DNA of 57,775 bases from an uncultured Verrucomicrobia subdivision 3 bacterium (GCA_903827955.1 CAIKKJ010000099.1:1-57775), one strand, 5' to 3'. Numbered from the stretch's first letter, positions 3,868 through 29,890 are shown. Numbers and translations are program-made. The notes: generated by a model from the sequence alone, not told the origin.

Positions 3868-3923
3868 AAGCCGGACGCCGGGCGAATTAACAACTAAAAG
3901 CTGGAATCAGTTTGTTGACCCAT

Positions 3924-9126: not shown

Positions 9127-9127
9127 T

Positions 9128-9919: not shown

Positions 9920-9925
9920 AAATTT

Positions 9926-11032: not shown

Positions 11033-11041
11033 ATTCGCTTC

Positions 11042-11848
11042 ATGATTTCTCCTAGGCACAACTTGTTTTTGGGCGGGTGCAGGTTTCGCAGCGCCGTCGT
11101 TCTGGTTTTGGGTCTGCGGCTTTCAGTCTTCGGTGTGCAGGCTGAACCAGCCGCATTCAGCAATTTTTTGGCTCAGGGCGAAGCGGCCCAGCAACGCGGG
11201 GATGTGCTGGGCGCGCTGAAATTTTATTCTGCCGCCGACCATTTGATGCCCACAAACTGCGCCGATTTGTGCGGATTGACGAAACACTACTGCGACCTGA
11301 TGCACGACGCGAGTTCGCCGGACATGCAAAAGACCTTGGCCGAATATGCGCTCGCAGCGGCCCGGCGAGCGGTGCAGGCCGATCCTCAAAGCGCCACAGC
11401 GCATCTCTGCGTTGCGGTGAGCTATGCCAAAAATTTTCCGTTTGTGGATAATCGCACCAAGGTAAACTGGTCCAGACAGCTCAAGGCCGAATGTGAAACT
11501 GCCATCGCACTTGATCCCCGGCAGGATGTGGGCCATTACCTGCTCGGACGTTGGCATTTTGGCGTGGCCAACATGAATTTTTTTCTCAAAGGCTTGGTGA
11601 TGGTCGTGTATGGCGGCCTGCCCAAGGCGAGCAATGCGGAGGCGATAAAACATTTCAAGCAGGCCATCACCTTGAATCCAAACCGCATCATTCATCACTT
11701 TGAATTAGCCAGCGTTTATACCGCTACCGGTGAAACCAAGCTCGCGCGGGTGGAACTCGAAAAATGCCAGATTTTGAAACCGTTCGATCGTGATGACGAA
11801 GCCGCGCAGCGCGACGCCAAGACATCGCTGGCGAACCTGGGTCTTTAA
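11042..11848 (+). CDS. Secreted TPR-like protein (RMD1/FAM82-type)
   Basis: The 268-residue protein has an N-terminal hydrophobic signal (about residues 15-35, ending VQAEP) and helical repeats of TPR type through the rest, e.g. FLAQGEAAQQRGDVLGALKF and AIKHFKQAITLNPNRIIHHF. The block YAKNFPFVDNRTKVNWSRQL and the stretch around LGRWHFGVANMNFF are characteristic of bacterial relatives of the regulator-of-microtubule-dynamics TPR family. It is probably periplasmic. It lies 9 nt downstream of the methyltransferase gene and 71 nt upstream of the lipocalin gene, so it is likely a late gene of the lipid operon. It may scaffold envelope lipid proteins, but this is a guess. Confidence 0.8.
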   Translation: MISPRHNLFLGGCRFRSAVVLVLGLRLSVFGVQAEPAAFSNFLAQGEAAQQRGDVLGALKFYSAADHLMPTNCADLCGLTKHYCDLMHDASSPDMQKTLAEYALAAARRAVQADPQSATAHLCVAVSYAKNFPFVDNRTKVNWSRQLKAECETAIALDPRQDVGHYLLGRWHFGVANMNFFLKGLVMVVYGGLPKASNAEAIKHFKQAITLNPNRIIHHFELASVYTATGETKLARVELEKCQILKPFDRDDEAAQRDAKTSLANLGL

Positions 11849-11919
11849 TTTTTACATATACAATTTACATGAATTTTCACCATAAAAACCAAGTCCCAAG
11901 CCTAATCCAGCAATTTTCC

Positions 11920-12456
11920 ATGACGCACTTCACGCGCTGGTGTTCGCTCGTGCTGGTCGCCTTCAGCCTCACCGGTTGTGCGACATCGCCTGCACCGTTG
12001 CGCACCGTGCCGCGCGTGGATTTGAACCGTTATCTTGGCAACTGGTATGTCATTGCCAACATTCCGTATGTCTTGGAAAACGGAAAAGTCGCCAGCTATG
12101 ACACCTATTCGATGCGGCCGGATGGACGCATGAACAATGTTTTCACCTTCCGCAAAGGCTCGTTCGATGCGCCGGAAAAAAGCTGGCACGGTGTCGCCTG
12201 GGTGGTGAACCGCGAATCCAACGCCGAGTGGCGCGTCCGTTTCCTCTGGCCACTTTACTCGACATATCTCGTGCTGGAACTCGATCCCGACTACCGCTGG
12301 GCCGTCGTCGCCACGCCGGGCCACAAATTGCTCTGGGTGCTCGCACGCACGCGCCACCTCGACGACGCGACCTATGCGGAAATCCTCAAACGCATCGCGG
12401 CGCAAGGTTACGATCCCAATCGGGTCGCCAAAGTGCCGCAGCCGGCGGAGCTTTGA
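11920..12456 (+). CDS. blc: Outer-membrane lipocalin lipoprotein (Blc-like)
   Basis: ATG 11920 gives a 178-residue lipoprotein with lipobox FSLTGC, so residue 20 or so is the lipidated Cys. The mature part has the lipocalin signature RYLGNWYVIANIPYVLENG, then the typical Blc-type segments and the end WVLARTRHLDDATYAEIL. Blc lipocalins bind lysophospholipids or fatty acids at the outer membrane and are stress-induced in E. coli; they are often linked to CFA-type gene sets under ECF sigma factors. An upstream in-frame ATG at 11869 would lengthen the N-terminus but spoil the signal peptide. The gene lies between the lipid operon and the ABC transporter set. Confidence 0.9.
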   Translation: MTHFTRWCSLVLVAFSLTGCATSPAPLRTVPRVDLNRYLGNWYVIANIPYVLENGKVASYDTYSMRPDGRMNNVFTFRKGSFDAPEKSWHGVAWVVNRESNAEWRVRFLWPLYSTYLVLELDPDYRWAVVATPGHKLLWVLARTRHLDDATYAEILKRIAAQGYDPNRVAKVPQPAEL

Positions 12457-12528
12457 TGGGCGAATCCGTCTATTTGCCGCCAATAATTTTTCCCATCCGT
12501 TAATTTAACGCGGACGAGGTTCTCCCCA

Positions 12529-13242
12529 ATGAGTCAAAAAAATATTTCTCCCGGACAATTCGCGCTCGCGCCGGTGCTGACCGCCACCAAGGTTACCAAG
12601 GCTTACGCGGACCGGACCGTGCTGCGCGGCGTGTCACTGGAGTTGCGGGCGGGCGAGCGGCTCGCGTTGACCGGCGCCTCGGGCAGCGGCAAGTCCACGC
12701 TGCTGAATTGTCTCGGCGGCGTGGATCGCGCGGATTCCGGCAGCATTCGATTCAAAAACATTTCACTTGAAACCCTCGATGCCGATGGTCTCACTGAAGT
12801 GCGCCGACGCGACATCGGCACCATCTTTCAATTTTTCCATCTGCTGCCAACACTGACTGCGGCGGAAAACATCGAGCTACCATTGCAATTAAACGGCGTC
12901 GCCGCCAAGGAACGCGGCGAGCGCGTGCGCTCACTTTTAGATCGTGTCGGCGTGGCGGGCCGCGCGGACGCTCTGCCCGGCCAGCTTTCCGGCGGTGAGA
13001 TGCAACGCGTCGCCATCGCCCGCGCGCTCGCGCACAAACCGTCCGTGCTGCTGGCCGACGAGCCGACCGGCAATCTCGATTCGCGGAACGGTGCGGTCAT
13101 TCTTGAATTACTCCGCGAACTTTCCGACGAAACCGGCACCGCGCTGCTGCTCGTCACGCACAGCGGCGCGGCGGCGCAGATTTGCCACCGGGAAATACAC
13201 CTGCGCGATGGCGAAATCGGCGGCGAGCGCGAAAAAGATTGA
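12529..13242 (+). CDS. ABC transporter ATP-binding protein (LolD/AttE-like)
   Basis: The 237-residue protein has Walker A GASGSGKST (about residue 49), the Q-loop region IFQFFHLLPTLTA, ABC signature LSGGEMQR, Walker B VLLADEPTGNLDS and a switch histidine (VTHSG). It is the class that partners with FtsX/MacB-type permeases that act on periplasmic substrates or lipids by mechanotransmission. It starts 72 nt after the lipocalin gene, and the permease starts 2 nt after its stop. With the permease and the CrtC/AttH-like protein that follow, it forms an AttEFGH-like set. Confidence 0.93.
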   Translation: MSQKNISPGQFALAPVLTATKVTKAYADRTVLRGVSLELRAGERLALTGASGSGKSTLLNCLGGVDRADSGSIRFKNISLETLDADGLTEVRRRDIGTIFQFFHLLPTLTAAENIELPLQLNGVAAKERGERVRSLLDRVGVAGRADALPGQLSGGEMQRVAIARALAHKPSVLLADEPTGNLDSRNGAVILELLRELSDETGTALLLVTHSGAAAQICHREIHLRDGEIGGEREKD

Positions 13243-13244
13243 GC

Positions 13245-15899
13245 ATGGTCGCCTCAAACAACACCGTGCTGCGGATCCTATGGTCGCGCTTCGCGTGGCG
13301 CCACTGGCGGCTGTCGCCCGTTTCGTCCTTGCTGTTATTGATGATTCTCGCGGTCGGTGTCGCGGCGTTTTTCTCCATCCGCCTCGCCAACCGCGCTGCC
13401 GTCGCGAGCTTCCAGAATTTTACCGACCTCATCACCTCGCAAAGCGACGGCCTCCTCGCCGCGCCCGTTGGTGATTTATCGGAAAATATTTTGCCCGAAC
13501 TGCGCCAACTGCTCGGCGACGAACCGGTCAACCTCGTGCCGGTTTTGGAAAGCACCGCCGTGCCGCCGCGCCGCGAAGAAAACGAGGCGCTGCTCTCGCG
13601 TCCGACGTTTCAATTGCTCGGCCTGGATTTGCCCGCGCTCGTAAATCTTGGGAGCCAGCAGGACAACGGCAAAGGCTGGTTCGGCTCTGCCGGTTCAACC
13701 AACGATTCCGAAAAAGGTTTTTCGCCCGTGCTGCGAAATCAACTTTCCGTTTTCATCAGCGACACGCTCGCGAAACGCGACCAACTGAAAATCGGTTCGC
13801 CGCTCTCGCTCATTATCAACGAACATCCGGTCACGTTGCGGGTCGTTGGCATCATTCCGAACGACCCGAAGCAACCGGCGGCTCCGGCCAATCTGCTCAT
13901 CATGGATTTGCCTGCGTTACAACAATTAACCGACAAAGCCGGACGGCTCGATCGCGTCGAACTGGTGCTTGAAGAAAGTCCGCGTCGCGCCGAGCGCTGG
14001 GCCGCGATGAAGAAAAAATTGGAGGCGGCGAATCCGCCCAACGCCCCGCGCTGGCTCGTGAGTTCGCCCGCTGACCGTCGCGAATCCGCCTCGATGATGA
14101 CACAGGCGTTTCGTCTGAATCTCACGCTGCTTTCGATGCTCGCCTTGCTCGTCGGACTTTATTTGGTTTTTCAAGGACTCGATGGCGCGGTTGTTCGCCG
14201 TCGAAATGAAATCGCTGTGTTGCGTTCGCTCGGCGTCACGTCGCGGCAGATTCAAACTGCGTGGCTCGTTGAAGCTGCCGCCATCGGCCTCGTCGGCTGC
14301 TTGCTCGGCCTCGGCCTCGGCTGGCTTGGCGCGCAAGCTGCCGTGAAAATGGTCGGCAAAACCGTCAACGCGCTTTACTACGCGAACTCGGTGGATTCCG
14401 CTGCATTTAATTTTGGCGAAGCCGCCGTCGCCCTGATTCTCGCAGTCATCGCCAGCACGCTCGCTGGCTGGCGGCCGGCACAAATCGCCGCCAACACGCC
14501 GCCCGCACAGGTCGCCTCGCGTGCGGGCACGACGAATTATCCCGGTGGAAAATTGTTAAGCAGCGCCAGCCTCGGCCTCGCGCTCATCGTGGTAGGAATT
14601 GTTTTAACTTGGCTCCCGCCGTTGCGTCTGGCGGGCGGCGCGCGTTTGCCGGTGGCGGCTTACGTCACGGCGTTGTGCTGGATTTTTGGCGCGGGAATTT
14701 TTGCGGGAAATACTTTGGCTGGAATCGGAAAATTTTTCCACGCGCTTAAAATTAATTCACTGACGCTCCGGCTCGCAGGCAGTCATCTCCGCGCACCGAG
14801 CGGACGCCATCGCCTTGCGGTTGCTGGCTTGGTTTGCGCCGTGGGCATGACAGCGGGCATGGCGATTCTCGTCGGCAGCTTCGACAAAACAATGCGCGGC
14901 TGGATTGACCGCACGTTCCAGGCCGACCTTTATATTTCGAGTGACGGCGCGCAAACCGCGTCATCGTCCAGCCGCATTTCACCGGCAACATGGAAAGCGG
15001 TCGTGGCGAATCCGGCGTTGAAGGAAGCGAACGTGATTCAATTTTTGGAAATTAAACTCGGCGACACCACGACGCTGCTCGTCGGCAACCATCTCGCGTT
15101 TTTCCGCGACTACGCGAAACCCGCGTGGTTGAGCACGCCGCTGAATGACGACATTTTTAATCCCAATCGTAATGCAAAACTCGCGCTCGTGAGCGAGGCG
15201 TTTGCCGAACGCTTTCGCGTGCAGCGCGGCGACGAAATAAAAATTCCCACGCCGGACGGATTTCGTGCCGTGACCATCGCCGGAATATTTTCCGATTACG
15301 GCAACGAACGCGGCTCGCTGCTGATTGAAAGTCAGCAGTTCAAAAATTGGTTCAGCGATGAACTCGCCGCGAGTTTGATTCTCGCGCTCAAGCCGGGCTA
15401 TGATCCTGAAACGTTGCGCGCGGAAATCCGCACGGCACATCCGGGCCTTGGCGTTTTTACCAGCAGCTATCTGCGCGGCGAGGCGCTGCGGATTTTTCGC
15501 CAGACCTTTGCCGTCACTTACGCGCTGGAATTGATTGGCATTATTGTGGCCGTGATTGGACTCGCGTTCACGATGGCGAGTTTGTTGTGGGAACGGCGCA
15601 CGGATTTGAACACGCTGCGCGCGCTCGGCCTGCGCCGAAACGAACTCGCAACGGCGGCGGCGCTCGAAGGCGCGCTCACGGCGACGGCGGGATTGTTGCT
15701 GGGAATTGCGGTGAGTTTCGCCTTGGGCTGGTTGCTGATTTACCGCATTAACAAACAAACCTTTGGCTGGACGCTGCAAACCGACTGGCCGTGGCTGCAA
15801 CTGTCCGCGCTCTCGCTACTCGTGCTGGCGAGCGCGAGTAGCGCGGGATGGTTTGTCGGTCGCTGGGCGGCGCAGCTGCCAGCAGAACGTGAGGAATGA
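13245..15899 (+). CDS. FtsX-like ABC transporter permease, duplicated (LolCE/AttFG-like)
   Basis: The 884-residue protein has an N-terminal membrane helix (about 25-45: LLLLMILAVGVAAFFSIRLA), a large periplasmic domain, a first FtsX domain (about 290-430, with LRSLGVTSRQI), a central helix pair, a second periplasmic domain, and a second FtsX domain at the C-terminus (about 760-884, with LRALGLRRNEL). It thus combines the two permease halves that are separate in AttF/AttG. ATG 13245 is best because it follows the ATPase stop by 2 nt. Its stop overlaps the next ATG (ATGA at 15896-15899). Such permeases extract or deliver lipids or lipoproteins at the membrane surface; the nearby lipid-modifying genes suggest a modified lipid as cargo (inference). 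Confidence 0.9.
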   Translation: MVASNNTVLRILWSRFAWRHWRLSPVSSLLLLMILAVGVAAFFSIRLANRAAVASFQNFTDLITSQSDGLLAAPVGDLSENILPELRQLLGDEPVNLVPVLESTAVPPRREENEALLSRPTFQLLGLDLPALVNLGSQQDNGKGWFGSAGSTNDSEKGFSPVLRNQLSVFISDTLAKRDQLKIGSPLSLIINEHPVTLRVVGIIPNDPKQPAAPANLLIMDLPALQQLTDKAGRLDRVELVLEESPRRAERWAAMKKKLEAANPPNAPRWLVSSPADRRESASMMTQAFRLNLTLLSMLALLVGLYLVFQGLDGAVVRRRNEIAVLRSLGVTSRQIQTAWLVEAAAIGLVGCLLGLGLGWLGAQAAVKMVGKTVNALYYANSVDSAAFNFGEAAVALILAVIASTLAGWRPAQIAANTPPAQVASRAGTTNYPGGKLLSSASLGLALIVVGIVLTWLPPLRLAGGARLPVAAYVTALCWIFGAGIFAGNTLAGIGKFFHALKINSLTLRLAGSHLRAPSGRHRLAVAGLVCAVGMTAGMAILVGSFDKTMRGWIDRTFQADLYISSDGAQTASSSSRISPATWKAVVANPALKEANVIQFLEIKLGDTTTLLVGNHLAFFRDYAKPAWLSTPLNDDIFNPNRNAKLALVSEAFAERFRVQRGDEIKIPTPDGFRAVTIAGIFSDYGNERGSLLIESQQFKNWFSDELAASLILALKPGYDPETLRAEIRTAHPGLGVFTSSYLRGEALRIFRQTFAVTYALELIGIIVAVIGLAFTMASLLWERRTDLNTLRALGLRRNELATAAALEGALTATAGLLLGIAVSFALGWLLIYRINKQTFGWTLQTDWPWLQLSALSLLVLASASSAGWFVGRWAAQLPAEREE

Positions 15900-17074
15900 A
15901 AATTTTGGAAAACAATTTTAACAAGCAAAACTTTCGCTGCGTTTGCGCGCTGTTGTTTTCAATGGTGTTTTTCAGTCGCGCGGACGCGGCGGAATTTCCC
16001 GCCAGCACCGCCGACGGCTATGCGATTCCGCAGCCCGGAAAACAATTTTCGTTCCCACGCGATCATGGCAGCCATCCTGATTTTGCGATTGAATGGTGGT
16101 ATATTACCGGCCATCTATTCGCGACGAATGATGCGCAGTTTGGTTTTCAGGCCACGTTTTTTCGTCGCGCGCTCATGCCGCCGGGCGCGACCAACAGTTC
16201 CGCTTCCACCGCGTTCGGCAACGACCAGATTTATCTCGCGCACGTGGCGCTTGTGGACAAAACGACAGGCAAATTTATTTACCAGGAAAAATTAAATCGC
16301 GCCGGCTGGGATGCGGCATCGGCGACGAATACGCTGGATGTTCGCAACGGAAATTGGTCGCTGCGACTTGCGCCGGAAAAAATCGGCGGGCGCGAAAGAT
16401 TTGAATTGCACGGCACGGTTGGTTTAGATGCCGCGTTCGTTTTGAATCTGTCGCCGAAAAAACCGATGGTGATATTCGGCACGAACGGCGTTTCGCGCAA
16501 GGCGGCAGATGTAAATGCCGCAAGTCATTATTTGACTTATCCACGACTTGCCACCGATGGCACGCTCACGCTCGCCGGAAAAAAACTGGCGGTCACGGGC
16601 GAGGCATGGATGGATCACGAATTCAGCAGCAGTCAATTGGGCGCGGGACAGGTTGGCTGGGATTGGTTGAGTGTGCAACTATTTGACGGACGCGAATTGA
16701 TGGCCTACCGGATGCGCCGCACGGATGGCGCGACCGATCCGTTTTCCACCGTCGCGTGGGTGGATGCGCAAAGCGTCGTGCGCCAAATCGGACCGGATAA
16801 ATTTGATTGGAAAATGTTGGAGCACTGGCACAGCGCGAAATCGAATTCAGATTATCCCTCGCTCGTGGAACTGACGGCGGAAAATCCCGTGACGGGTAAA
16901 AAGGAACATTTCATTGTGCGTCCGTTCGCAGCAGATCAGGAACTCGTCGGTCAAGCTGGCGGCGTGGGTTATTGGGAAGGCGCGTGCCATGTGTGGGATG
17001 AGAGTCAAAAGGAAATCGGCCGGGCCTACCTGGAACTGACCGGCTACAGCGAAAGTCTGAAGGGAAAGCTTTAG
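15896..17074 (+). CDS. Secreted AttH/CrtC-like lipocalin-fold protein
   Basis: The 392-residue protein has a signal peptide (about 1-31, ending ADAAEF) and the AttH/carotenoid 1,2-hydratase (CrtC) family core: DFAIEWWYITGHL near residue 63, WMDHEFSSSQLGAGQVGWDW near residue 240, and the C-terminal ELTGY. The fold is two lipocalin-like barrels. CrtC hydrates carotenoids, but most members, including AttH, are periplasmic partners of FtsX-type ABC transporters, and that role fits here because the gene overlaps the permease by 4 nt. There are no carotenoid biosynthesis genes in the window, so I prefer AttH over CrtC. A hydrophobic ligand such as a modified fatty acid is likely (inference). Confidence 0.88.
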   Translation: MKILENNFNKQNFRCVCALLFSMVFFSRADAAEFPASTADGYAIPQPGKQFSFPRDHGSHPDFAIEWWYITGHLFATNDAQFGFQATFFRRALMPPGATNSSASTAFGNDQIYLAHVALVDKTTGKFIYQEKLNRAGWDAASATNTLDVRNGNWSLRLAPEKIGGRERFELHGTVGLDAAFVLNLSPKKPMVIFGTNGVSRKAADVNAASHYLTYPRLATDGTLTLAGKKLAVTGEAWMDHEFSSSQLGAGQVGWDWLSVQLFDGRELMAYRMRRTDGATDPFSTVAWVDAQSVVRQIGPDKFDWKMLEHWHSAKSNSDYPSLVELTAENPVTGKKEHFIVRPFAADQELVGQAGGVGYWEGACHVWDESQKEIGRAYLELTGYSESLKGKL

Positions 17075-17078
17075 CAAG

Positions 17079-17484
17079 TTAACGGGCGGCAATATTCACA
17101 ATGGTTTTCTTTTTGCGCTGCGTAGCGATTGGCTTTAAGGGTGTTGACCAAAACTTTTTTTGCCAGCGGCTGATCACCCCGGTGGCGACGCCGTTGCCGA
17201 TGACGAGCGCGAGTGTGGAGCCAATCTCAAAATAGAGCAGCGCCTTGAAGCCGAGCGGGCTAAGTTTTTTCAAATCGCCCATCGAGGCGATGCCGTGGAC
17301 GAGGGTGCAGAAGATGCCGGGCGCGATCATCATCTTCACGAGCTTGATGAAACCATCGCCCAGCGGCTTCAGCGATTTGCCGAAATCGGGGAAGAAATGC
17401 CCAACCACGATGACATACGCCACCGCCACCAATACCTGGACGTAAAAGGAAGCGATACCAGGGTTTGCTCGCGGCGGGGTTCAT
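17079..17484 (-). pseudogene. dctA: dctA (C4-dicarboxylate symporter) remnant: N- and C-terminal ends joined, frameshifted
   Basis: On the minus strand, ATG 17484 opens [13 protein letters not shown], and the next frame continues [40 protein letters not shown] and [19 protein letters not shown]: the first ~100 residues of DctA/GltP-type symporters. One extra base in the 4-base run at 17444-17447 (A on the plus strand) breaks the frame; with three bases [15 protein letters not shown] reads normally. After LALVIG the sequence jumps to [15 protein letters not shown], which matches the C-terminal end of DctA (E. coli has NGVATIVVAKW). About 290 central residues with the substrate and sodium sites are missing. 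The remnant lies between the AttH-like gene and the FecR-TPR-barrel gene. Confidence 0.85.
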
Positions 17485-17551: not shown

Positions 17552-20500
17552 TCAAAAATTCAGCCGCAGACTCGCCATAAATGTTCGGCCGTGCGGCAGG
17601 TCAGCGGTCAGATTCAGCGGGTTCAAGCGATAGTCTTCATCCGCAAGGTTCAGGATGCTGGCGCGGATTTCCGCGTGCCGGCGCGCAAACCGCCAGCCGA
17701 CCGTCACGTTGTGCTGCCAGAAATCCGGGTTCGCCACTGCCGACCCGTAGCCGTAATTACTCTGGTGATACCACGACGATTCCCACTGCGCGAACACGCC
17801 GCTCGGATGACTAAAATTCAATGCAAGGGAAACTTGATGCATCACTGCACGGTTGTGCTGCTCCAGTTGGTCGAGTCCGGCGGCAGTGTGCGGGATGTCG
17901 GGAAACTCCGTGGTCAGCTTCGCCTCGCTCAATCGGTAGCGCGTGCTCACGGAAAAATAATCACCGAGCAGTTGCGAAGCATAGACCGAAAGATTGCGCT
18001 CGCGGAAATTCAACTGCTGCCGCGTCGTGCCGGCGTTGTTCGCCTGCAAAATGGGTGCAAAAAATTTGAAATCGCCCGCGTTGCGCTCACCGTCTGACGT
18101 CAGTTGTTCCGTTTCAATCCCGAAAAAAGTCCCACTCTTCAGCGACTGGTCAAAACCGAGGCTGATGGTTTCAAATTGCGAACCCGGCACCAGGCCGGCC
18201 ACGCTTTCCGGCAGCAGGCTGCGATACGCCTGATTGAATCCACCCACCTGCGTCGGCTCCAAGCGCACGCTGTTGTCGAAGTAAAGCCCACCGAGCGACC
18301 GCGTCCACGCCGCGCGGAACAGGCCACGCTCCCACGGCTGGAAAAGTAGTCCAGCTTTTGGCGCGACCAGATCACGTTCTGATTCACCGGCGGTGATCGG
18401 CGGCAGATCCAGATTTTTCGGAAACCGGATGTGGCTGTAGTCCACACCGCCGATGACGCGCAGCTTTCCTGTCATTTGCCACGAGCCGTAGGCATAGGCA
18501 TCGCCGCGCTCTAGATCGCTGCTGATTTTTTGATCGGTCACCGTTTGCGGCAACCCGCCGTTGATGTCCGATAATTGCGAGCTGGTTTCATTATTCCCCG
18601 ACTGCCAGCGACCGCCGACGATGAGTGAAAATTTTTCCGTCTCCCAAATCTGTTGCACATCCGCCGAGTAAAGCGTGAAGCGGCTGTTCAAGTCCGATGT
18701 CAACGGCCCGTTCCCCGCCGGATAAGGATTCAGCGGCCCGTTTTGCACGCTGAGAATGTTGTCGCTGAAAAATCCCGTCTGCAAAAACAGCACGTCCTGA
18801 TTGCCGTTGTGCTGGGCGAACTCATCCTGCAAACGCGAAAACAAAAATAGCGTGTGACTGCGAGGCGACCATGCGTGATGCCAGCCCAGATAAATGTCTG
18901 GCTCCTGTTTTTCTTTCACGCGAAAATTCATTGCGGTGTCCACCGGATTGTAGTGCTGCGCCACGTCGCCCGCTTCGGAATGGAAATCACCAATCTGGAA
19001 ATACAAATCATCATCTGCCGTCACGCGCTGCTTCATTGTCAGCGCAAAGTCCCGCTGCTCACTGTCGTTGTTCGCATGCTGGCCGTTTAGGCTTTGATAA
19101 ACCGTGTCGAACGCGTAGCTAAAGCCGCCGGTCGAACCGAAAACCGTGGCGGTTTCGCTCCAGTCACCGCAGCTGCCGTAGCCGGTAAGCGAACTTACGC
19201 CAAAGGGTTTCTGGTCGAAGAATCGAAGACGTTCTGACTGCGACAAGACTTGTGAAAGATTTCCCGCGCCCGGGGGCGCCAGCAGATTAGCGACGAGCAA
19301 CTCACTTTGCCGCGCGGTTTCGAGACGGAGATCAAAGCGGTTCAAATCCTCCTGCGCTTGATAGCTGTTCGCGAGAAACAGGTGGCCGGAAAAATTCGCG
19401 TAGCTCTCGCTGACCGCGCGGGCGGCGACGTGGCGGCTCACCTCGGTCAAGCCCGCGTCGTCGTAAATCGCCGCGAGGTTCGCGCTGCGCACCGAACGGT
19501 CGCCGTCGAGCAATTCGCGCGAACGGAACGCCGCGCGGTTGTCGTTTTTGTCGGACGATTTCTCGAGATCGCGGATGGCGGCGTTGAGTTTGTTTTCCTG
19601 CGAGAGATGCAGCGCGGAGTAGAGCCATGGCGTCGGGTCGTTCGCATCAAGTTCCTTGGCGAGACGGAATTCTTTTTCCGCCGACTTCGCATCGCCGACT
19701 TCGCTCGCGGCTTTGCCAAGGTAACTGCGGAACAAACTGCGTTGCGGTTCCAGTGCCGCTGCGGCTTGGAACGAGGCGCGGGCTTCGGGAAAATTTTGTT
19801 CGTGCAACAGGCAAAGCCCGCGTCCCAACCAAGCACAGCCCAGCGCGGCGTCTAGTGCGCGGGCCTTGTCAAAATGAATCAACGCGTTGCTTGCATCACC
19901 TTGGTCTAGCAGAATAAAACCCTGCAATGCATAGGCGGAAGCCAGGCGCGGTGAAAACTGATAAGCCAGGTTCAATTCTTCCAACGCGGGGCGGCGATTG
20001 CCGAAGGCGAATTCAATTTCTGCAAGGCGGGCGTGGGCGAAACCAAAATTCGGCGCAAGTTCCACCGCATGTTTGGCGGCGGCGCGGGCGTTCTCCAAAT
20101 CGGCAGCGGCTTGAAGCGCGTAGCTGTGTGCGAGCAACGCGCTGGCGGAACGCCGATCTAAAGATCGGCGTTCCGTCTCACCGCGAACGACGGCAATGAG
20201 TTCGTGCAACGCGCTGGCTGTTGAATTCTCCGGCCGGCCGGCGAGAAGTTTTTCCGCTTTGTTCACGCGACCCACGGCGAGTTCGAGTTGAGCGTGGAGA
20301 ATTTTTGCGCTGTCACTGGAAGAACTCGACGAAGCGGGCCAGGCGGCAAGTGCGGCAAGCAAATCACCGGCGCGATAATTTTTCAGCACTTCAGCGAGCT
20401 CGGATTGTTCGGCAGAATCAAATTGTAGTTCGTCGGGATTGACGATGGCGGGATAATAGAGTGCCCACTGAATTTTGGCGGTGGCGCTGACGAGCGCGGT

Positions 20501-21046
20501 CTTTTGAGCGGGCTTGCCGGTTTCGAGGCGTAAATCTTCGCCGCGTTGCAGGCTAATCTCCTCGGTGGCGGATTTCAGTGAAACTAACCCGTCAATCAGC
20601 GCGAGGTGAACACCTTTCTGGTCGTCGGCTTCCAGTAAAAATTCCGTGCCGCGAATGGCCCCGGCGGCGAGCGGCGTATCAAACTCCACATCGGCAGGTT
20701 TTTCGCGGTTGAAAAAGTAGAGAGCTCCTTGCGAAAGGCCGAAGCGTTTTTTCTCCGCGTTGCGCGGCGGGAGAATTTCCATCGTGGTGAACTCGTCGAG
20801 ACGGATGATGCTGCGGTCGGAGAGCTGGACGGCGGCGCGGCTTTGGGCGCGGGTGCGGACTTTGTCGCCGGGCTGGAGCGCGATGCCGACGGACGCGGCC
20901 TGCCAGTTGGTGGCGGTGGCGGTGAAAAACTCCACCTTTCCGGAGGCCTCGATGAGCGTGCTAGCGGAATTCGTCTGCGCCGCTGCCGCGAATGTCGCAA
21001 GCAGCAGTGCGAGAAAAACGCATCTCAATTTTAGAGCGAGGGTCAT
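17552..21046 (-). CDS. FecR-TPR-outer-membrane beta-barrel chimera
   Basis: The 1164-residue protein has a signal peptide (about 1-23), a FecR domain (about 30-160: GKVEFFTATATNWQAASVG, QPGDKVRTRAQSRAAVQLSD), a long TPR region (about 215-570: ARAAAKHAVELAPNFGFAHA, DASNALIHFDKARALDAA), and a C-terminal part (about 600-1164) of alternating beta-strands like a TonB-dependent-receptor barrel. It ends ASILNLADEDYRLNPLNL...SLRLNF, with the terminal Phe typical of outer-membrane barrels. I see no plug domain and no TonB box. TPR-plus-barrel layout recalls the exopolysaccharide exporters PgaA and PelB, but the barrel reads more like a receptor. A sigma-54 promoter (21072-21086) and palindrome (21158-21177) precede it. 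A palindromic element (20146-20175) is inserted in frame between the TPR blocks. Confidence 0.88.
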   Translation of the reverse strand: MTLALKLRCVFLALLLATFAAAAQTNSASTLIEASGKVEFFTATATNWQAASVGIALQPGDKVRTRAQSRAAVQLSDRSIIRLDEFTTMEILPPRNAEKKRFGLSQGALYFFNREKPADVEFDTPLAAGAIRGTEFLLEADDQKGVHLALIDGLVSLKSATEEISLQRGEDLRLETGKPAQKTALVSATAKIQWALYYPAIVNPDELQFDSAEQSELAEVLKNYRAGDLLAALAAWPASSSSSSDSAKILHAQLELAVGRVNKAEKLLAGRPENSTASALHELIAVVRGETERRSLDRRSASALLAHSYALQAAADLENARAAAKHAVELAPNFGFAHARLAEIEFAFGNRRPALEELNLAYQFSPRLASAYALQGFILLDQGDASNALIHFDKARALDAALGCAWLGRGLCLLHEQNFPEARASFQAAAALEPQRSLFRSYLGKAASEVGDAKSAEKEFRLAKELDANDPTPWLYSALHLSQENKLNAAIRDLEKSSDKNDNRAAFRSRELLDGDRSVRSANLAAIYDDAGLTEVSRHVAARAVSESYANFSGHLFLANSYQAQEDLNRFDLRLETARQSELLVANLLAPPGAGNLSQVLSQSERLRFFDQKPFGVSSLTGYGSCGDWSETATVFGSTGGFSYAFDTVYQSLNGQHANNDSEQRDFALTMKQRVTADDDLYFQIGDFHSEAGDVAQHYNPVDTAMNFRVKEKQEPDIYLGWHHAWSPRSHTLFLFSRLQDEFAQHNGNQDVLFLQTGFFSDNILSVQNGPLNPYPAGNGPLTSDLNSRFTLYSADVQQIWETEKFSLIVGGRWQSGNNETSSQLSDINGGLPQTVTDQKISSDLERGDAYAYGSWQMTGKLRVIGGVDYSHIRFPKNLDLPPITAGESERDLVAPKAGLLFQPWERGLFRAAWTRSLGGLYFDNSVRLEPTQVGGFNQAYRSLLPESVAGLVPGSQFETISLGFDQSLKSGTFFGIETEQLTSDGERNAGDFKFFAPILQANNAGTTRQQLNFRERNLSVYASQLLGDYFSVSTRYRLSEAKLTTEFPDIPHTAAGLDQLEQHNRAVMHQVSLALNFSHPSGVFAQWESSWYHQSNYGYGSAVANPDFWQHNVTVGWRFARRHAEIRASILNLADEDYRLNPLNLTADLPHGRTFMASLRLNF
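20146..20175. repeat. Perfect 14-bp inverted repeat inserted in the FecR-TPR-barrel gene
   Basis: CGGAACGCCGATCT - AA - AGATCGGCGTTCCG is a perfect 14-bp inverted repeat with a 2-bp loop. It falls between TPR units of the minus-strand gene (about residues 290-300) and encodes the low-complexity sequence ERRSLDRRS without breaking the frame. I think it belongs to a dispersed palindromic repeat family, because it is too long and too exact to be a chance feature of coding sequence. Confidence 0.75.
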
Positions 21047-21071
21047 CGGTAATTTTCTTCTGATTTGTTAA

Positions 21072-21086
21072 GCAGCGCGCTTGCCA
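21072..21086 (-). promoter_or_regulatory. Sigma-54 promoter of the FecR-TPR-barrel gene
   Basis: Read on the minus strand, TTGGCAAG-CGCG-CTGCT has the -24 GG and -12 GC separated by exactly 10 bases, as RpoN promoters require (consensus TGGCACG-N4-TTGCW). The expected start of transcription is about 12 nt on, near 21060, leaving about 15 nt before the ATG at 21046. It is the weakest of three such promoters, having CTGC instead of TTGC at -12. Confidence 0.75.
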
Positions 21087-21157
21087 AAGTTTCAGACGGA
21101 CGTTTCAAGTTGAAAAGCCTTTGTTTTTTGCAGGCGGATTCCATTCAGGAATTTTTC

Positions 21158-21177
21158 CTGTTCCGCAACCGGAACAG
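21158..21177. promoter_or_regulatory. Enhancer-type palindrome upstream of the FecR-TPR-barrel gene
   Basis: CTGTTCCG - CAAC - CGGAACAG is a perfect 8-bp inverted repeat with a 4-bp spacer. Its centre is about 95 bp upstream of the -12 element, a usual distance for the binding site of a sigma-54 activator. The same TGTTCCG-N4-CGGAACA core occurs at 23102-23119. It also lies just before the start of the region downstream of the Ig-like gene. Confidence 0.75.
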
Positions 21178-21178
21178 C

Positions 21179-22969
21179 TCACTCAATCCGCACACGGAAA
21201 AATTTCGTTCCCGGCCCGGCGATGTTCGTTGAATAGCTCTGGCCGTCGCCGAAGAACGGCGTCGCCCATTGTGTCCACGGGCCGGTGAGGTTGGTGGCCG
21301 AGAGAATGGTGTAGCGGAAATTCGCCGCAGTCGGAAAAGCGAGGTTGAAGTTGCTGCCGCTCCGGTTGACGGAGCAGTTCATCGGCGTGACGACGTGCAG
21401 CAGGTTGCTGACGGTGATGGTGCCGAGGTCGTTCGTTACCGTGAGCGTGTAAGTTCCGGTGCTAGCACTGGTGACGTTCGTGAGTTGCAAAACAGGAATC
21501 GTCACGCTGGCGATGTTCGTGCCGTTCTTTTTCCACGAATAGACGAGCGGCAACGCACCGGTGATGGATGGAGCGAGCGTGACAGTGCTGCCCGTAAAAA
21601 CCGTCTGCGTCACGACGAGGCTCGAAGCCGAAGGTGGTTGCGCCGGCTGGTTGGTGTTGAGCGCGTAGTTCAGCCAGGCCGTGCCGCGCGCGGCATTCAC
21701 GCCGTCCACGACGACGACGTATTGCCGCGTCTTCACGGCCTGAAACGAGACTCGCGCCGCGCCGTGCAGAGCCACACTGTCATTATCGCAGCCGACGGAA
21801 ATCAAATCGCCATAGCCAGTGAGCGTGCCATTGTAGGTATAAAATTCCATCACGGTATCGTAGGAACTGCCGACAGTGTCGAGCGTCATCGTGCCGTTCG
21901 TCGGCGGCTGGTATTGCAGCCAATACGAGGCACCGCCGGTCACGCCGCAGTGCGGCGGTTCAGCAGGGTCAGTGGTGGCGAAGGTGGTGTTAAAAACCTG
22001 GCTGCCATTGTAGCCGCGCACGACGCCGATATTTGGAGTCAGCGGGCCGCCGCCAAATCCGCCGGGGCGAATCGCGACTTTGGAAACAATGACGTGACCG
22101 GTGTTTGTCCCGCCGCCATCATCGCCTATCAGCGCGGTCGAGGGTGAATCCAACAATTTATCTTCCGCCAGCGTGTTGGTGGAGCCGTCGGAGTTGATTT
22201 GCAATTCCACCGGCGTGGTAAAAAAGCGCACGCGGTTATTGCCGTTGCCCACAGTTACTCGCAGTTGATAGCGACCGACGTTCGTATCTTGCAAGCTGGT
22301 GATGACGATGTTTGTGCTGGTCTGATTAGTCGCTTCGTTGCCGTTGAAAAACCACTGGAACTGCGCGCCGCCGGTGGCGGTCATGTTCACCGTGAGCGTC
22401 ACTGGGTCGCCCTGTTTGGCGGCAAGGTCGTTCGGCGTGCTGACGATGATGGGCGGTGGTGAGGCGGCGGGCAGAAAACTCCAGTTCAACACCACCGTGC
22501 CGGTCGCGCCCTGATAACCATCCACAGCGATTTCGTAACTGCGTCCGGCGATAGCGCCAATCTGAATCAAGCTGGTCGGCGGCGCGGCGGGGTCGTCGTC
22601 GTTGCGCGCCTCTTCGTGAAGCTGCGTGACTTGTGTGCCGTTGGTCGTGTAAGCCGAGAGCAATGTGTCGAAGCTGCTGCCGTGCGTATCGAACGTCGCC
22701 ACGCCGTTCGTCGGTGCGACCCAGGAAATCCACAGCGAATGACCGCCAGGTTTGCCACCATGTTTTGGCTCGCCGGTTTCGACCGTCGCGGCGGAATTGT
22801 CACCCACCAAAGTTCCGTTCGTGGTGAAGATCGTTTCGCGGTTCGTGAAGTAATCTTGAAAGTTTGCCGCCTGCGCGTCGGCCATCACCGCAAACACGCA
22901 AAAAACCAATGCCGTCGCCGCGCCACGGAGGACGCCACTGCCCAACCAGATTTTCAGGCCGCACTTCAT
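21179..22969 (-). CDS. Secreted protein with PPC-like and Ig-like domains
   Basis: ATG 22969 gives 596 residues with a signal peptide (about 1-35, ending ADAQA); an in-frame ATG at 22990 is also possible. The order is: pre-peptidase C-terminal (PPC)-like domain (LWISWVAPTNGVATFDTHGS, FDTLLSAYTTNG, about 60-165), Ig-like domain (KQGDPVTLTVNMTATGGAQF, about 175-260), a second PPC-like domain (YWLQYQPPTNGTMTLDTVGS, about 330-440), a second Ig-like domain (about 445-530), and a C-terminal motif YTILSATNLTGPWTQW ending FFRVRIE. No catalytic motif is visible, so it is a structural or binding protein of the surface or periplasm. It has a sigma-54 promoter (23026-23041) and palindrome (23102-23119), linking it to the adjacent regulator. 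Confidence 0.85.
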   Translation of the reverse strand: MKCGLKIWLGSGVLRGAATALVFCVFAVMADAQAANFQDYFTNRETIFTTNGTLVGDNSAATVETGEPKHGGKPGGHSLWISWVAPTNGVATFDTHGSSFDTLLSAYTTNGTQVTQLHEEARNDDDPAAPPTSLIQIGAIAGRSYEIAVDGYQGATGTVVLNWSFLPAASPPPIIVSTPNDLAAKQGDPVTLTVNMTATGGAQFQWFFNGNEATNQTSTNIVITSLQDTNVGRYQLRVTVGNGNNRVRFFTTPVELQINSDGSTNTLAEDKLLDSPSTALIGDDGGGTNTGHVIVSKVAIRPGGFGGGPLTPNIGVVRGYNGSQVFNTTFATTDPAEPPHCGVTGGASYWLQYQPPTNGTMTLDTVGSSYDTVMEFYTYNGTLTGYGDLISVGCDNDSVALHGAARVSFQAVKTRQYVVVVDGVNAARGTAWLNYALNTNQPAQPPSASSLVVTQTVFTGSTVTLAPSITGALPLVYSWKKNGTNIASVTIPVLQLTNVTSASTGTYTLTVTNDLGTITVSNLLHVVTPMNCSVNRSGSNFNLAFPTAANFRYTILSATNLTGPWTQWATPFFGDGQSYSTNIAGPGTKFFRVRIE

Positions 22970-23025
22970 GAATTGCGCACAGTATTGCATAACTACCGGA
23001 ACGCGTCCGGCAAATTTTATGTTTA

Positions 23026-23041
23026 GCAATCCCGTTGCCAA
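23026..23041 (-). promoter_or_regulatory. Sigma-54 promoter of the PPC/Ig-like protein gene
   Basis: On the minus strand, TTGGCAAC-GGGA-TTGCT matches the RpoN consensus with GG and GC exactly 10 bases apart. Transcription should start near 23014, giving a leader of about 45 nt to the ATG at 22969 or 24 nt to the one at 22990. The site lies in the 152-bp gap between this gene and the response regulator gene. Confidence 0.82.
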
Positions 23042-23101: not shown

Positions 23102-23119
23102 TGTTCCGGTAGCGGAACA
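23102..23119. promoter_or_regulatory. Enhancer-type palindrome upstream of the PPC/Ig-like gene
   Basis: TGTTCCG - GTAG - CGGAACA is a perfect 7-bp inverted repeat with a 4-bp spacer, just after the response regulator stop codon (23122-23124). Its centre is about 84 bp upstream of the -12 element, that is about eight helical turns. The core is the same as at 21158-21177, so both are probably bound by one dimeric factor, most simply the adjacent Fis-type regulator. Confidence 0.78.
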
Positions 23120-23121
23120 GA

Positions 23122-24528
23122 CTAATCTTTTTCCACGCGGAGTTCCGGCCACTTTTCAAGTCGGCGTAACAGCGCCTGCGGCGACATGCCGAGTTTGGTC
23201 GCCGCGCGGCGGATGCCGCCGTTCGCCTCGCGCAACGTATCGCGGATGAGCCGATATTCTTGCGCGTCGATTGGAGAAAGATTTCGTTCGCCGGGCAATG
23301 GCTCGGCGGCGGTTACTGGTGCAGCCGCAGAAACGGAAGTCGCAACCGGTGTCGGTGAAGAACCACGATTCAGCCAGTTCGCATCCAGCGTGAGCCACTT
23401 CGCGTCGTCGGCAGTTTTCAGCAGGGAACGCTCCAGCACGTTGCGCAGCTCGCGGACGTTGCCGGGAAAATCATGCGCGGAAAGTTTTGCCAGATCTTCC
23501 GGCGTGAGCAGCGGCTTGGTGCGTCCGTATTTTTGCGCAAGTTGGGCAAGCAACAATTCCGCGAGGCCAGGAATTTCTCCGCGCCGACGGCGCAGCGGCG
23601 GCAATTCGATGCTGAACACGTCAAAACGATACAGCAAATCTTCCCGGAAACGCCCCGCCTTCACTTCGTCCATCAAATTTTTATTCGTCGCCGCCACGAA
23701 GCGTCCCGTGAACGGCTGCGCCTCCGTGCTGCCGAGCGCGCGATACTCGCGAGCCTCCAGCAACCGCAGCAGCTTGGCTTGCAACGCCAGCGGCACTTCG
23801 CCGATTTCGTCGAGGAATAGCGTGCCGTTCGCCGCCGCCGCCACGAGGCCGCCGCGTTTTTTGTCCGCGCCGGTGAACGCTCCGCGTTCTGCGCCGAATA
23901 ATTCCGATTCAAACATCTCGCCCGGCAGCGCCGCGCAGTTCACCGCGATGAATGGCGCTTTGCCATCGGGAAAACTCAACTGGTGCAGCACGCGCGCCGC
24001 GAGATCTTTGCCCGCACCGGTTTCGCCCGTGAGCAACACCGTGCTGGCCGCGTGCTTCGCCGCCTGCTTGAGCTGTTGCAACACGTCGCGCATCGCCGCC
24101 GATTCGCCGAACATTTCTGTTGCCGTTGCTGGCGTCGCGCGCGTCTGCATCCGCAGCTTGGCGCGCTCCAGCGCCGCCGCGAGCGCATCCACGGAAATCG
24201 GCTTGGTGAGATATTCGAACAGCCCGTTGCGCGTGAGCGACACCGCCTCGCTCAAATCCGGCGCGCCCGTGATCATCACGATGGGCGCATCGGGGTTGCG
24301 ACGGGAAACCTGGTTGAAAAAATCGTAGCCCTTGCCGTCCGGCAGATGATTGTCCAGCAGGATGAGGTCGAAATTTTTCGCGGCGGAAATTTCTTGCGCG
24401 ACCGCCAGCGTGTGGGCCAGCGTCACTTTTCCGCCCGCCTCGCCAACGACACTCGCCGCCATCGTCGCGAACGACACGTCGTCATCCACGATGAAGCAGG
24501 AGAAATTATTTGCGGATTTGCCGTTCAC
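23122..24528 (-). CDS. Sigma-54-dependent response regulator (NtrC family)
   Basis: The 468-residue protein has a receiver domain (about 10-120, phospho-acceptor Asp in LILLDNHLPDG near residue 61, Lys in YLTKPIS), an AAA+ sigma-54 activation domain (about 140-370) with Walker A GETGAGKD, the GAFTGA loop that contacts sigma-54, and Walker B GTLFLDEIGE, and a C-terminal Fis-type helix-turn-helix (about 425-468: GIRRAATKLGMSPQALLRRL). All residues needed for ATP-driven promoter opening are present. It follows the CHASE2 histidine kinase gene by 33 nt on the same strand, so the two form a two-component pair. Three sigma-54 promoters with a common palindrome nearby are its likely targets. Confidence 0.96.
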   Translation of the reverse strand: MNGKSANNFSCFIVDDDVSFATMAASVVGEAGGKVTLAHTLAVAQEISAAKNFDLILLDNHLPDGKGYDFFNQVSRRNPDAPIVMITGAPDLSEAVSLTRNGLFEYLTKPISVDALAAALERAKLRMQTRATPATATEMFGESAAMRDVLQQLKQAAKHAASTVLLTGETGAGKDLAARVLHQLSFPDGKAPFIAVNCAALPGEMFESELFGAERGAFTGADKKRGGLVAAAANGTLFLDEIGEVPLALQAKLLRLLEAREYRALGSTEAQPFTGRFVAATNKNLMDEVKAGRFREDLLYRFDVFSIELPPLRRRRGEIPGLAELLLAQLAQKYGRTKPLLTPEDLAKLSAHDFPGNVRELRNVLERSLLKTADDAKWLTLDANWLNRGSSPTPVATSVSAAAPVTAAEPLPGERNLSPIDAQEYRLIRDTLREANGGIRRAATKLGMSPQALLRRLEKWPELRVEKD

Positions 24529-24561: not shown

Positions 24562-27258
24562 TCACTTCAAGCTGCGGCTTACGGTGTTCAGCAACTCCGC
24601 CAAGGCAAATGGCTTTTCCAATTGCGCAACGTTCGCAATGTCCGCGCCGGATTCGCCGCTCGCGAGAATCATCGGCAGGCCGGGCTTCAGCTTCCGGATT
24701 TCTGCGATGGCTTGCGGGCCGGTCAGCACAGGCATGGAGTTGTCCGTGATGAGCAGACGCACTTCGTCCGCGTGCTGCTTGAAAAGCGTGACCGCTTCCG
24801 CGCCGTTCGCCGCCGTGATCACACGGTAGCCAAACTCCGTTAGCTCCGCCGCGACGAGTTCGCACAATGCCTGTTCGTCGTCTGCGAGCAGAATTAATTC
24901 GCCATGGCCGCGCGGCAACGCATCTTCCATTTTTTCCGCAGCCGCCGCGGCGAACTCCGGCGCGCACGGGATGAATACTTCAAACGTCGTGCCGTGGCCG
25001 ACCTCGCTCTCCACGCGCAGAAATCCGCCGTGGCTTTTCAGGATGCGCACGACCGTAGCCAGCCCGATGCCTGTGCCTTTGCCTTCGCCCTTCGTCGTAA
25101 AAAACGGCTCAAAAATTTTTGCCTGCACTTCCGGCGGCATGCCTGTGCCCGTGTCGGACACGGCGAGCGAAATAAACTTGCCCGGCTGGCCGTCGGGGAT
25201 TTCCTTCGCCTCCGCTTCTGCCAGCGTGACGTTATCGGCCACGAAGGAAAGCTTGCCGCCGTCCGGCATCGCGTCGCGGGCGTTCACGCAGAGGTTTAAC
25301 AACACCTGATGTAATTGCGTGAGGTTGCCCTGCACCGGCCAAAGATCACGTGGGATGAACGTCTCCACCGCGATGCTCTTGGGAAAAGTTTCGCGCACCA
25401 TCTTCTCCAGTTCCTTCACCAGCGGACCGAGTTCGAGCCGCTCGAATTCGCCGCCACGCCCGCGCGCGAACAGCAACACCTGCCGCACCATGTCCGCGCC
25501 GCGATTCGCGCTGGTCTCGATCAGTGAAAGCAATTTGCGGTCGTCCTCGCTGACGGTCTTGCGCCGCAGCAACTGTGCGCCGAGCAGCACGGGCGAGAGC
25601 GCGTTGTTCAAGTCGTGCGCCATGCCGCCGGCGAGCGTGCCGATGGTGTTCATGCGCTGCGTGCGGAGAAATTGTTGCTCCAACAATTTCTTTTCCGTGA
25701 TATCGCTGTTGATGAGCAGCAGCCCGCTCGGCTGGCTAACGTCATCGCGGATCAGCGTCCAGCGGCTGTCCACGGTGATGACTTGTCCGGCGCTGGTTTG
25801 CAATTGAAGCTCGCCGTTCCACTCGCCTTCCTTCAAGGCGATGTCGCGCGCCTTGTCAGCATCAGCGGCGGCGGGCAAAAATATTTCGGCGGCAGACTCG
25901 GGCTTAATTTCGGAAAATTTCCAACCATAAAGTTTTTCCGCGCTCGGATTGGCATAGATGATTTTGCCGTTCAAGTCCTGCACGAGAATCGCGTCGTGCG
26001 CTTTATCGAGCAGCGCGGCCTGCTCGCGGATTTTGGCGTCGGCGATGCGTTTAGCGGCTTCCAATTTGCGGCGAGTGAAAAACCATTCCTGAAACTGCCA
26101 CAGCCACGAGCCGAAGAGTGCCGCGGGAATCTGGACGGCGCTGACGATGAGCCATGGAAACCATATTCCCCTAGCAAAACCTGCGAGCGAAAGTATTGGA
26201 ATCAAACTAGCACCAGTGATTGCGAGAATGGTCGCGGGCACGGGGCGGAACCAGAGCAGTCCGCTGCCAAAAATCAGTGCGGTCAGCAATAGGATAAAAT
26301 TTTCCATCCCGTTACCCATTCGTTGTAGCGCATCTTGTCGCAGCAAATTCAACAATTGGGTGGCGTGGACTTCGACCCCGGGAATAAAAAATTCCTTGCT
26401 GCTCCACGCGCCGCGAAAGGGGCTGCGGAATTCATCACGCTGCGCATTTGGCAAACCTTCAATGGGCCGCCCGCCGATGAAAACAATCTTGTCGCGGAAA
26501 AATCCTGAAGGCAGCGCGCCTGGATCCAAGGCTTCGTAATAACTCACCTGCGGAATCGTCAGCGCCGGACCATAGTAGCGAATCCAAAGATTGCCGTTGA
26601 TGACGGTATTTGTTGCGCCAATGAGTCTTGCGGCGGCGAGGCTCAAGCTGGGAATCTGCTCGTTGCCGAATGGCGGCAAGTGGTGACGGACCACAAAATC
26701 ATCATCAATCCAAAGCGAGTCGACTCCCCAGCCGGCCGTCGCGCGGGTAAAACTTTCCTCCGGCAGAATCAGCATTGTGGACCGAGTCCGACTTTCGGTG
26801 CTGGAAGTTTCATGGGTGTTTTTATTGTTGTGGCCAGCCGCCAGGATGACACGACCATTTTCTTGAATGGCTGTCGCGAGGGCTACGTCAGCCAAATGGC
26901 TTTCGCTTGGCGTATCGAAGAGGATGTCAAAAACCACGGCGCGTGCGCCATCAGCGGTGAGCCGCTCGACCAATTTTGCATGCAGATCTCGCGGCCACCG
27001 GTTGGCGGGATCTTGATGCTCGTGAAAAAATGAGGCGATATCGAGATAGACGATGACTACCCGCGGATCGTCGAAGGTTTTTTGGTTGAGCGCGGCGAGC
27101 GAATGAAGCGAATCGTAGCTGTCGTTGGTAAAACGATTTTTCAAGGCAATGCCAAGCAACGCCACGCCTGCCGCGAGCACAAGCGCGGCAAATACGCGGG
27201 GCTTGGTTGCCTGCGGAAAAGCCATGTGCCGTTGAGCATATTTAGGGAGCGTGCGCAT
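24562..27258 (-). CDS. CHASE2-PAS hybrid histidine kinase with C-terminal receiver
   Basis: The 898-residue protein has an N-terminal membrane anchor (about 22-40), a periplasmic CHASE2 sensor domain (about 45-305, with DPRVVIVYLDIASFF and GARAVVFDILFDTP), three membrane helices (about 315-395), a PAS domain (about 415-530), a HisKA domain with the phosphorylated His in GGMAHDLNNALSP (about residue 548), a HATPase domain (DTGTGMPP, GKGTGIGLATVV, about 640-770) and a receiver domain (about 785-898, Asp in LLITDNSMP). It should sense a periplasmic or envelope signal and pass phosphate to the adjacent NtrC-type regulator. FecR and CHASE2 proteins are often encoded together in bacteria, matching the FecR domain of the 17552-21046 product. 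An ATG at 27225 is an alternative start. Confidence 0.93.
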   Translation of the reverse strand: MRTLPKYAQRHMAFPQATKPRVFAALVLAAGVALLGIALKNRFTNDSYDSLHSLAALNQKTFDDPRVVIVYLDIASFFHEHQDPANRWPRDLHAKLVERLTADGARAVVFDILFDTPSESHLADVALATAIQENGRVILAAGHNNKNTHETSSTESRTRSTMLILPEESFTRATAGWGVDSLWIDDDFVVRHHLPPFGNEQIPSLSLAAARLIGATNTVINGNLWIRYYGPALTIPQVSYYEALDPGALPSGFFRDKIVFIGGRPIEGLPNAQRDEFRSPFRGAWSSKEFFIPGVEVHATQLLNLLRQDALQRMGNGMENFILLLTALIFGSGLLWFRPVPATILAITGASLIPILSLAGFARGIWFPWLIVSAVQIPAALFGSWLWQFQEWFFTRRKLEAAKRIADAKIREQAALLDKAHDAILVQDLNGKIIYANPSAEKLYGWKFSEIKPESAAEIFLPAAADADKARDIALKEGEWNGELQLQTSAGQVITVDSRWTLIRDDVSQPSGLLLINSDITEKKLLEQQFLRTQRMNTIGTLAGGMAHDLNNALSPVLLGAQLLRRKTVSEDDRKLLSLIETSANRGADMVRQVLLFARGRGGEFERLELGPLVKELEKMVRETFPKSIAVETFIPRDLWPVQGNLTQLHQVLLNLCVNARDAMPDGGKLSFVADNVTLAEAEAKEIPDGQPGKFISLAVSDTGTGMPPEVQAKIFEPFFTTKGEGKGTGIGLATVVRILKSHGGFLRVESEVGHGTTFEVFIPCAPEFAAAAAEKMEDALPRGHGELILLADDEQALCELVAAELTEFGYRVITAANGAEAVTLFKQHADEVRLLITDNSMPVLTGPQAIAEIRKLKPGLPMILASGESGADIANVAQLEKPFALAELLNTVSRSLK

Positions 27259-29793: not shown

Positions 29794-29874
29794 AATTTTG
29801 ATTTGTTGTCGTTGTTTTTTTTGCGAACACAGTCCGCTTGAGTGCGGAACGATTCGTTGCTGTGACCTCCTTTA

Positions 29875-29890
29875 GCAACGGTCGTGCCAG
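29875..29890 (-). promoter_or_regulatory. Near-perfect sigma-54 promoter of the secreted-protein operon
   Basis: On the minus strand CTGGCACG-ACCG-TTGCT fits the RpoN consensus TGGCACG-N4-TTGCW at every defined position, with GG and GC 10 bases apart. Transcription should start near 29863, about 70 nt before the ATG at 29793. The leader contains a small hairpin with TCCGC/GCGGA arms (29833-29848). Confidence 0.88.

Follow-up and report, generated by a model that had tools for sequence, protein, structure and literature searches.

In Sinorhizobium meliloti, signal perception requires both NsrA and CyaK, and the surface-exposed part of NsrA consists of barrel loops rich in acidic residues, as reported in PMC7529298. 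Campylobacterota CHASE2 adenylate cyclase clusters encode a FecR outer-membrane protein and a TPR protein (PMC9239204), and the Burkholderia BiofilmReg operon comprises a CHASE2 histidine kinase, a response regulator and a FecR-domain protein (PMC5192318). The latter study states that what CHASE2 domains sense is not known. Here we describe a gene at 17552-21046 on the minus strand of a 57,775-nucleotide stretch (hereafter the window) from an uncultured Verrucomicrobia subdivision 3 bacterium (GCA_903827955.1, CAIKKJ010000099.1:1-57775). Its 1164-aa product joins a FecR domain, a TPR array and an outer-membrane barrel; we refer to this FecR-TPR-barrel receptor (FTB) by its predicted role as the receptor. 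By analogy it looks like a verrucomicrobial counterpart of NsrA, the Sinorhizobium plant-signal receptor. We consider it probable that the receptor is the NsrA-type, trans-envelope outer-membrane half of a CHASE2 system that feeds a kinase, an NtrC-type regulator and sigma-54 and acts back on the receptor itself.

The arrangement of a FecR-TPR-barrel protein with a CHASE2 protein is already known in kind from NsrA-CyaK. Both chains carry the three parts in one polypeptide (NsrA has 1190-1200 aa, with the barrel from about residue 600), a CHASE2 protein gene lies in the same cluster, adjoining nsrA, and the outer barrel loops are acidic, in our family in 75 of 75 sequences. CyaK, however, is an adenylate cyclase, whereas the window locus encodes a hybrid histidine kinase and an NtrC-type regulator, to which it adds an Ig-domain protein and, with the receptor among its members, a predicted sigma-54 regulon. 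Since the output is a histidine kinase and not an adenylate cyclase, which is found in 28 relatives, the locus is a variant and not the NsrA-CyaK pair proper. The kinase form, the spread in Verrucomicrobiota and the predicted sigma-54 circuit are new here. The Campylobacterota clusters also encode a CHASE2 transducer, FecR and TPR together, but in those clusters the two are described as distinct proteins and here they form one chain. BiofilmReg likewise unites a CHASE2 histidine kinase, a response regulator and a FecR-domain protein, yet its FecR is joined to LysM, no TPR or barrel is described, and its regulator is of OmpR/CreB type.

Results

The receptor frame is unbroken from an ATG at 21046 to the stop at 17552 and encodes, in order, a signal peptide, the FecR domain, the TPR array and a C-terminal outer-membrane barrel ending in SLRLNF. 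Pfam and AlphaFold2 place a FecR-containing periplasmic beta domain at residues 29-184 (20495-20962, minus strand), the FecR match itself covering residues 61-155 (20582-20866, E 5.6e-13). A TPR helical array occupies residues 211-589 (19280-20416, minus strand) according to Pfam, AlphaFold2 and conservation, and several Pfam TPR families match at about residues 300-510. The barrel spans residues 615-1164 (17555-19204, minus strand). It is matched by Pfam TonB_dep_Rec_b-barrel at residues 685-1134 with an E-value of 7.8e-5, slightly short of the cut-off that five of eight relatives pass. Scans of nine proteins with Pfam revealed no plug family, and no TonB box was seen by eye in the receptor, no profile being run for so short a motif. 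The sequence-only reading had proposed that FecR, TPR and barrel form one secreted chain; the unbroken frame, profile matches to all three parts and a signal-peptide helix in the AlphaFold2 model bear this out. The same layout is retained in about 85 full-length relatives, which excludes a chance fusion or a frame artefact. Directly downstream of the receptor gene, a short minus-strand frame at 17079-17432 resembles by eye the N-terminal part of a dicarboxylate/amino-acid symporter and is apparently a remnant.

A direct tblastn search of plasmids with the receptor sequence matched the FecR or TPR parts only; these matches led to NsrA, whose identity was then confirmed by its annotation and by comparing profiles. 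The annotated nsrA and cyaK genes on S. meliloti pSymB (CP140934) overlap by one base. In the NsrA orthologue of S. meliloti ml56, FecR occupies residues 66-160 and TPRs about 378-590, followed by a C-terminal barrel. When our family was compared with NsrA by hhalign, the FecR (E 6e-26), TPR (E 2e-15) and barrel (E 5.7e-12 over 418 columns, reaching the C terminus) profiles each aligned with their own counterpart and not with the other parts. NsrA and the window receptor share 26-27% identity over FecR and TPR. The cyaK counterpart of strain ml56 (L127:11904-14373) is split over two frames, one with the CHASE2 and one with the cyclase part, and has no annotated gene. Strain ml28 (L129) has an intact annotated cyaK, and the split in ml56 may reflect either an error in sequencing or a pseudogene.

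An AlphaFold2 model of the receptor, built on an alignment of 75 sequences, reached a mean predicted local distance difference test (pLDDT) score of 88.6 and a predicted template modeling (pTM) score of 0.85. The model consists of a signal-peptide helix (residues 2-22), the beta domain (29-184), TPR helices (211-589) and barrel strands (615-1163), and the barrel has 22 strands. In 75 of 75 sequences only 26 alignment positions separate the last TPR helix from the first barrel strand, a linker too short for a plug, so a hidden plug is absent. Loop sides were assigned by strand parity, with the chain entering the barrel from the periplasm. Periplasmic turns are predicted at 2-5 residues each in the window protein and external loops at up to 38 residues, and almost all long or length-variable loops fall on the outer side. 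In the model this is the pattern expected of a correctly oriented outer-membrane barrel.

The variable regions of the barrel correspond to the external loops, which are net acidic throughout the alignment. Two long outer-side loops are conserved, at residues 919-956 and 1133-1154; the remaining long loops differ in length and sequence. The first of these, between strands 13 and 14 (18179-18292, minus strand), is putatively outer by strand parity, is picked out by its conservation and has the family consensus LGGxxFDxSxRLEPxQVAGFNQAFRSLIPES. The barrel-proximal TPR stretch at residues 510-600 also ranks among the most conserved of the receptor. The plugless 22-strand barrel may be sealed by the conserved loop 919-956 or by the 26-position linker.

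Foldseek and VIA-align matched the barrel to the TonB-dependent receptors PirA, FoxA, Cir, FhuA, BtuB and FecA, with E-values down to 7e-16 and Z-scores of about 19 to 22; a PDB sequence search with the first alignment gave TPR proteins only among the 60 matches listed. The window receptor shares the 22-strand barrel with BtuB, FhuA and FecA but differs in lacking a plug and in having FecR and TPR placed in front. The shared fold, with FecA among the matches, and weak to moderate PF00593 matches raise the possibility of a TonB-coupled nutrient receptor whose plug has been lost or is separate and which also signals, as FecA does. We regard this as very unlikely: a plug is found in none of the 75 aligned sequences, the N terminus is taken up by the signal peptide, FecR and TPR, and none of the FecR genes of this genome has an extracytoplasmic function (ECF) sigma factor beside it. 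In lacking a plug, the model supports the sequence-only reading, to which no plug domain was visible.

Genes adjoining the receptor were surveyed in relatives taken from phylum genomes and genome contigs. The 80 named loci represent the closest matches to the query, and almost all carry the label Verrucomicrobiota. Open reading frames were called by length, and small profiles, made from members that Pfam had confirmed, served to assign CHASE2 and the output classes. A CHASE2 gene lies nearby in 61 of 89 receptor loci, on stretches of varying length, and in 29 of the 33 loci flanked on either side by 4 kb or more. The two genes are on the same strand in 59 of the 61 loci and less than 150 bp apart in 37. 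The output domain is a cyclase in 28, a Ser/Thr kinase in 15 and a histidine kinase in 13, with five unclassified; adenylate/guanylate cyclase, protein kinase and histidine kinase domains were confirmed by Pfam in several loci. On the receptor tree the output changes three times, compared with a mean of 22.2 after shuffling and a least possible number of two, indicating that receptor and CHASE2 stayed together and the output was swapped only a few times. This lasting pairing supports the suggestion, made from the sequence alone, that the protein senses a surface signal and is functionally tied to the CHASE2 kinase.

Very large or repeat-rich, probably secreted proteins adjoin the receptor gene in several relatives (L030:2608-8001, L031:11466-16901, L059:3464-5485, L062:13422-15443 and L104:5488-9564), their domains varying by locus among FG-GAP/PKD, carboxypeptidase-regulatory-like and NHL repeats.

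In the window, Pfam identifies the partner kinase (24562-27258, minus strand) as a hybrid histidine kinase with CHASE2, PAS, HisKA, HATPase and REC domains. It is accompanied by an NtrC-type response regulator (23122-24528, minus strand) with REC, an AAA+ domain containing GAFTGA, and HTH_8. A secreted Ig-domain protein, also identified by Pfam (21179-22969, minus strand; in-frame ATG at 22969 or 22990), is a predicted sigma-54 target. The palindrome TGTTCCG-N4-CGGAACA occurs upstream of the receptor gene at 21159-21176, with a sigma-54 -24/-12-like element, TTGGCAAGCGCGCTGCT, at 21068-21087 on the minus strand, and again upstream of the Ig-protein gene at 23102-23119, with the element TTGGCAACGGGATTGCT at 23022-23041 on the minus strand. 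These are the only two such sites in the 3.86 Mb genome. A third palindrome with the core GTTCCG-N4-CGGAAC (29991-30008) is followed by an element without pattern mismatch, TGGCACGACCGTTGCT (29874-29889, minus strand), and precedes a third predicted target. The latter, at 29281-29793 on the minus strand, is a 170-aa protein with a signal-peptide-like N terminus and no Pfam match. Glycoside hydrolase family 3 and GDSL esterase genes, overlapping by 4 bases, lie upstream of this target at 30152-33069.

The core palindrome has three sites in the whole genome, all within 9 kb of the receptor locus and each with a -24/-12-like element 77 to 117 bp farther on. Loci of this clade, 190 kb in all, contain 14 copies of the core, whereas 1.2 Mb of other loci, where most partners are cyclases or Ser/Thr kinases, contain none. 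A similar palindrome with a -24/-12-like site precedes one or both of the Ig-protein and receptor genes in six related loci (L039, L040, L041, L042, L045 and L074). At L044 one such palindrome (6671-6688) follows the receptor gene and precedes another gene, and a -24/-12-like site lies on its far side. Sigma-54 (RpoN) is encoded in the bacterium's own genome. With REC, an AAA+ domain with GAFTGA, HTH, RpoN and paired palindrome and -24/-12 sites all present, the locus appears from its sequence to be under NtrC-type sigma-54 two-component control, and the co-occurrence of these parts suggests that the regulator may bind the palindromes.

Such a regulon has a bearing on two other explanations. 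The layout had been likened to TPR-barrel exporters such as PgaA and PelB, and the protein might export a polymer or the Ig-domain protein, with the two-component system only switching the exporter on. It shares with these exporters a periplasmic TPR followed by an outer-membrane barrel, the barrel is plugless, the receptor and secreted-protein genes apparently belong to one regulon, and some relatives adjoin very large, probably secreted proteins. The barrels of PgaA-type exporters (PgaA, PelB and BcsC), however, have 16 strands, and the analogy thus comes down to TPR ahead of a barrel. The window receptor has 22 strands, matches TonB-dependent receptors, carries FecR, and has no polymer synthase gene among the window neighbors scanned. 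PgaA-like chains were not among the structure matches, an absence that we do not count as evidence, relying on the strand count instead. CHASE2 is moreover the constant neighbor whatever its output, whereas the secreted neighbors change by locus. Export therefore appears unlikely, and the likeness was not borne out.

Alternatively, the protein could be an envelope scaffold that keeps the outer membrane organized or serves as an anchor for the Ig protein, with the CHASE2 system only monitoring assembly. This would suit the conservation of the barrel-proximal TPR and a barrel loop, not of the variable loop tips, and also the prediction that receptor and Ig protein are co-regulated. Relatives with cyclase or Ser/Thr-kinase partners, however, lack the palindrome and yet retain the CHASE2 pairing, and PMC7529298 reports NsrA as a signal receptor. 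A scaffold is in our judgment decidedly unlikely, and a receptor role remains the preferred reading.

FecR domains pair with CHASE2 also beyond this receptor family. The bacterium's genome has four FecR domains and only four CHASE2 domains, clustered one to one on four contigs (C99, C38, C106 and C170). The other three FecR proteins have no TPR or barrel matches and lie beside CHASE2 cyclases. Across 30 genomes, 38 of 61 FecR domains are within 7 kb of a CHASE2 domain (0.43 expected), and within the genus 32 of 37 are near one. An ECF sigma factor adjoins none of the four FecR genes of the genome. The four FecR contigs show a single sigma match, at 3150-3305 of the window and thus some 17 kb away from the FecR domain; it falls in an ECF sigma gene at 3123-3782, between which and the receptor gene's end lie 14 kb. 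This gene and the FecR domain are what would recommend an anti-sigma FecR protein fused to an outer-membrane part and controlling an ECF sigma factor. That explanation fails on anatomy: FecR is preceded by a signal peptide and not by a cytoplasmic anti-sigma part and membrane helix, and no anti-sigma or C-terminal FecR-protein Pfam families were found in the receptor. The distance of the sigma gene also counts against it, as does the lack of any ECF-type match on the three contigs that carry the other FecR genes, leaving it hardly any probability. The clustering with CHASE2 and the lack of an adjoining ECF sigma factor indicate that FecR in this setting is most likely a CHASE2 partner and not the anti-sigma domain that the sequence-only reading had taken it to imply; the Campylobacterota (PMC9239204) and BiofilmReg (PMC5192318) clusters agree with this.

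The ECF sigma gene is followed, on the other strand, by a lipid-modification gene set that extends up to 17074. It includes a fatty-acid desaturase, an amine oxidoreductase, two cyclopropane-synthase-like methyltransferases, DUF1295, ABC and FtsX/MacB proteins and a CrtC-lipocalin. Together, the sigma and lipid genes (3123-17074) resemble a sigma-controlled membrane-lipid stress operon.

Discussion

In the mechanism that we propose, an external ligand would contact the loops of the plugless TonB-receptor-type barrel, and the periplasmic TPR arm, attached by its short linker, would carry FecR toward the inner membrane. The arm may relay a ligand-induced change to FecR, which in turn may engage, or release, the periplasmic CHASE2 domain of the kinase; the role as receptor and the inward direction of the signal are inferred. 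The kinase would then phosphorylate the NtrC-type regulator, whose predicted binding to the palindromes would activate sigma-54 transcription of the Ig-domain protein and the small secreted protein. The receptor gene itself is also a predicted target of this activation, which would constitute feedback.

Several points weigh against this mechanism. A receptor that lies within the regulon might be a product of the pathway and not its sensor. Identity in the barrel-to-barrel alignment with NsrA is 17%, and beta-barrels of this class are generally alike. Four relatives with long flanks (L031, L062, L077 and L109) have no CHASE2 gene nearby, and in this clade the receptor is two genes away from the kinase, although it is adjacent in most relatives. 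The general sigma-54 pattern alone occurs at chance level in the window (3 found, 3.26 expected) and so counts only jointly with the palindromes. A reversed control of the core palindrome also has two matches per strand in the genome. The number of palindromes alone is therefore weak, and the evidence lies in their clustering beside -24/-12-like sites and their restriction to the clade.

A broader and more tentative possibility, which we would not yet call the likelier one, is that CHASE2 domains in general have FecR as their protein partner, reading a FecR domain brought to them on a periplasmic or outer-membrane protein and not a free small molecule. In this family, a plugless TonB-receptor barrel would then have turned into a receptor for signals alone, its TPR arm spanning the periplasm and its cyclase, Ser/Thr kinase and histidine kinase outputs being interchangeable.

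Conclusions

The locus takes NsrA-type outer-membrane signaling beyond rhizobia, into a phylum of environmental bacteria. Its predicted three-palindrome circuit is small and readable and could report receptor activity. The one-to-one pairing of FecR with CHASE2 in the bacterium's genome, together with one receptor family that has three CHASE2 outputs, offers a testable answer to what CHASE2 domains sense, namely that the signal may arrive at CHASE2 as a FecR protein.

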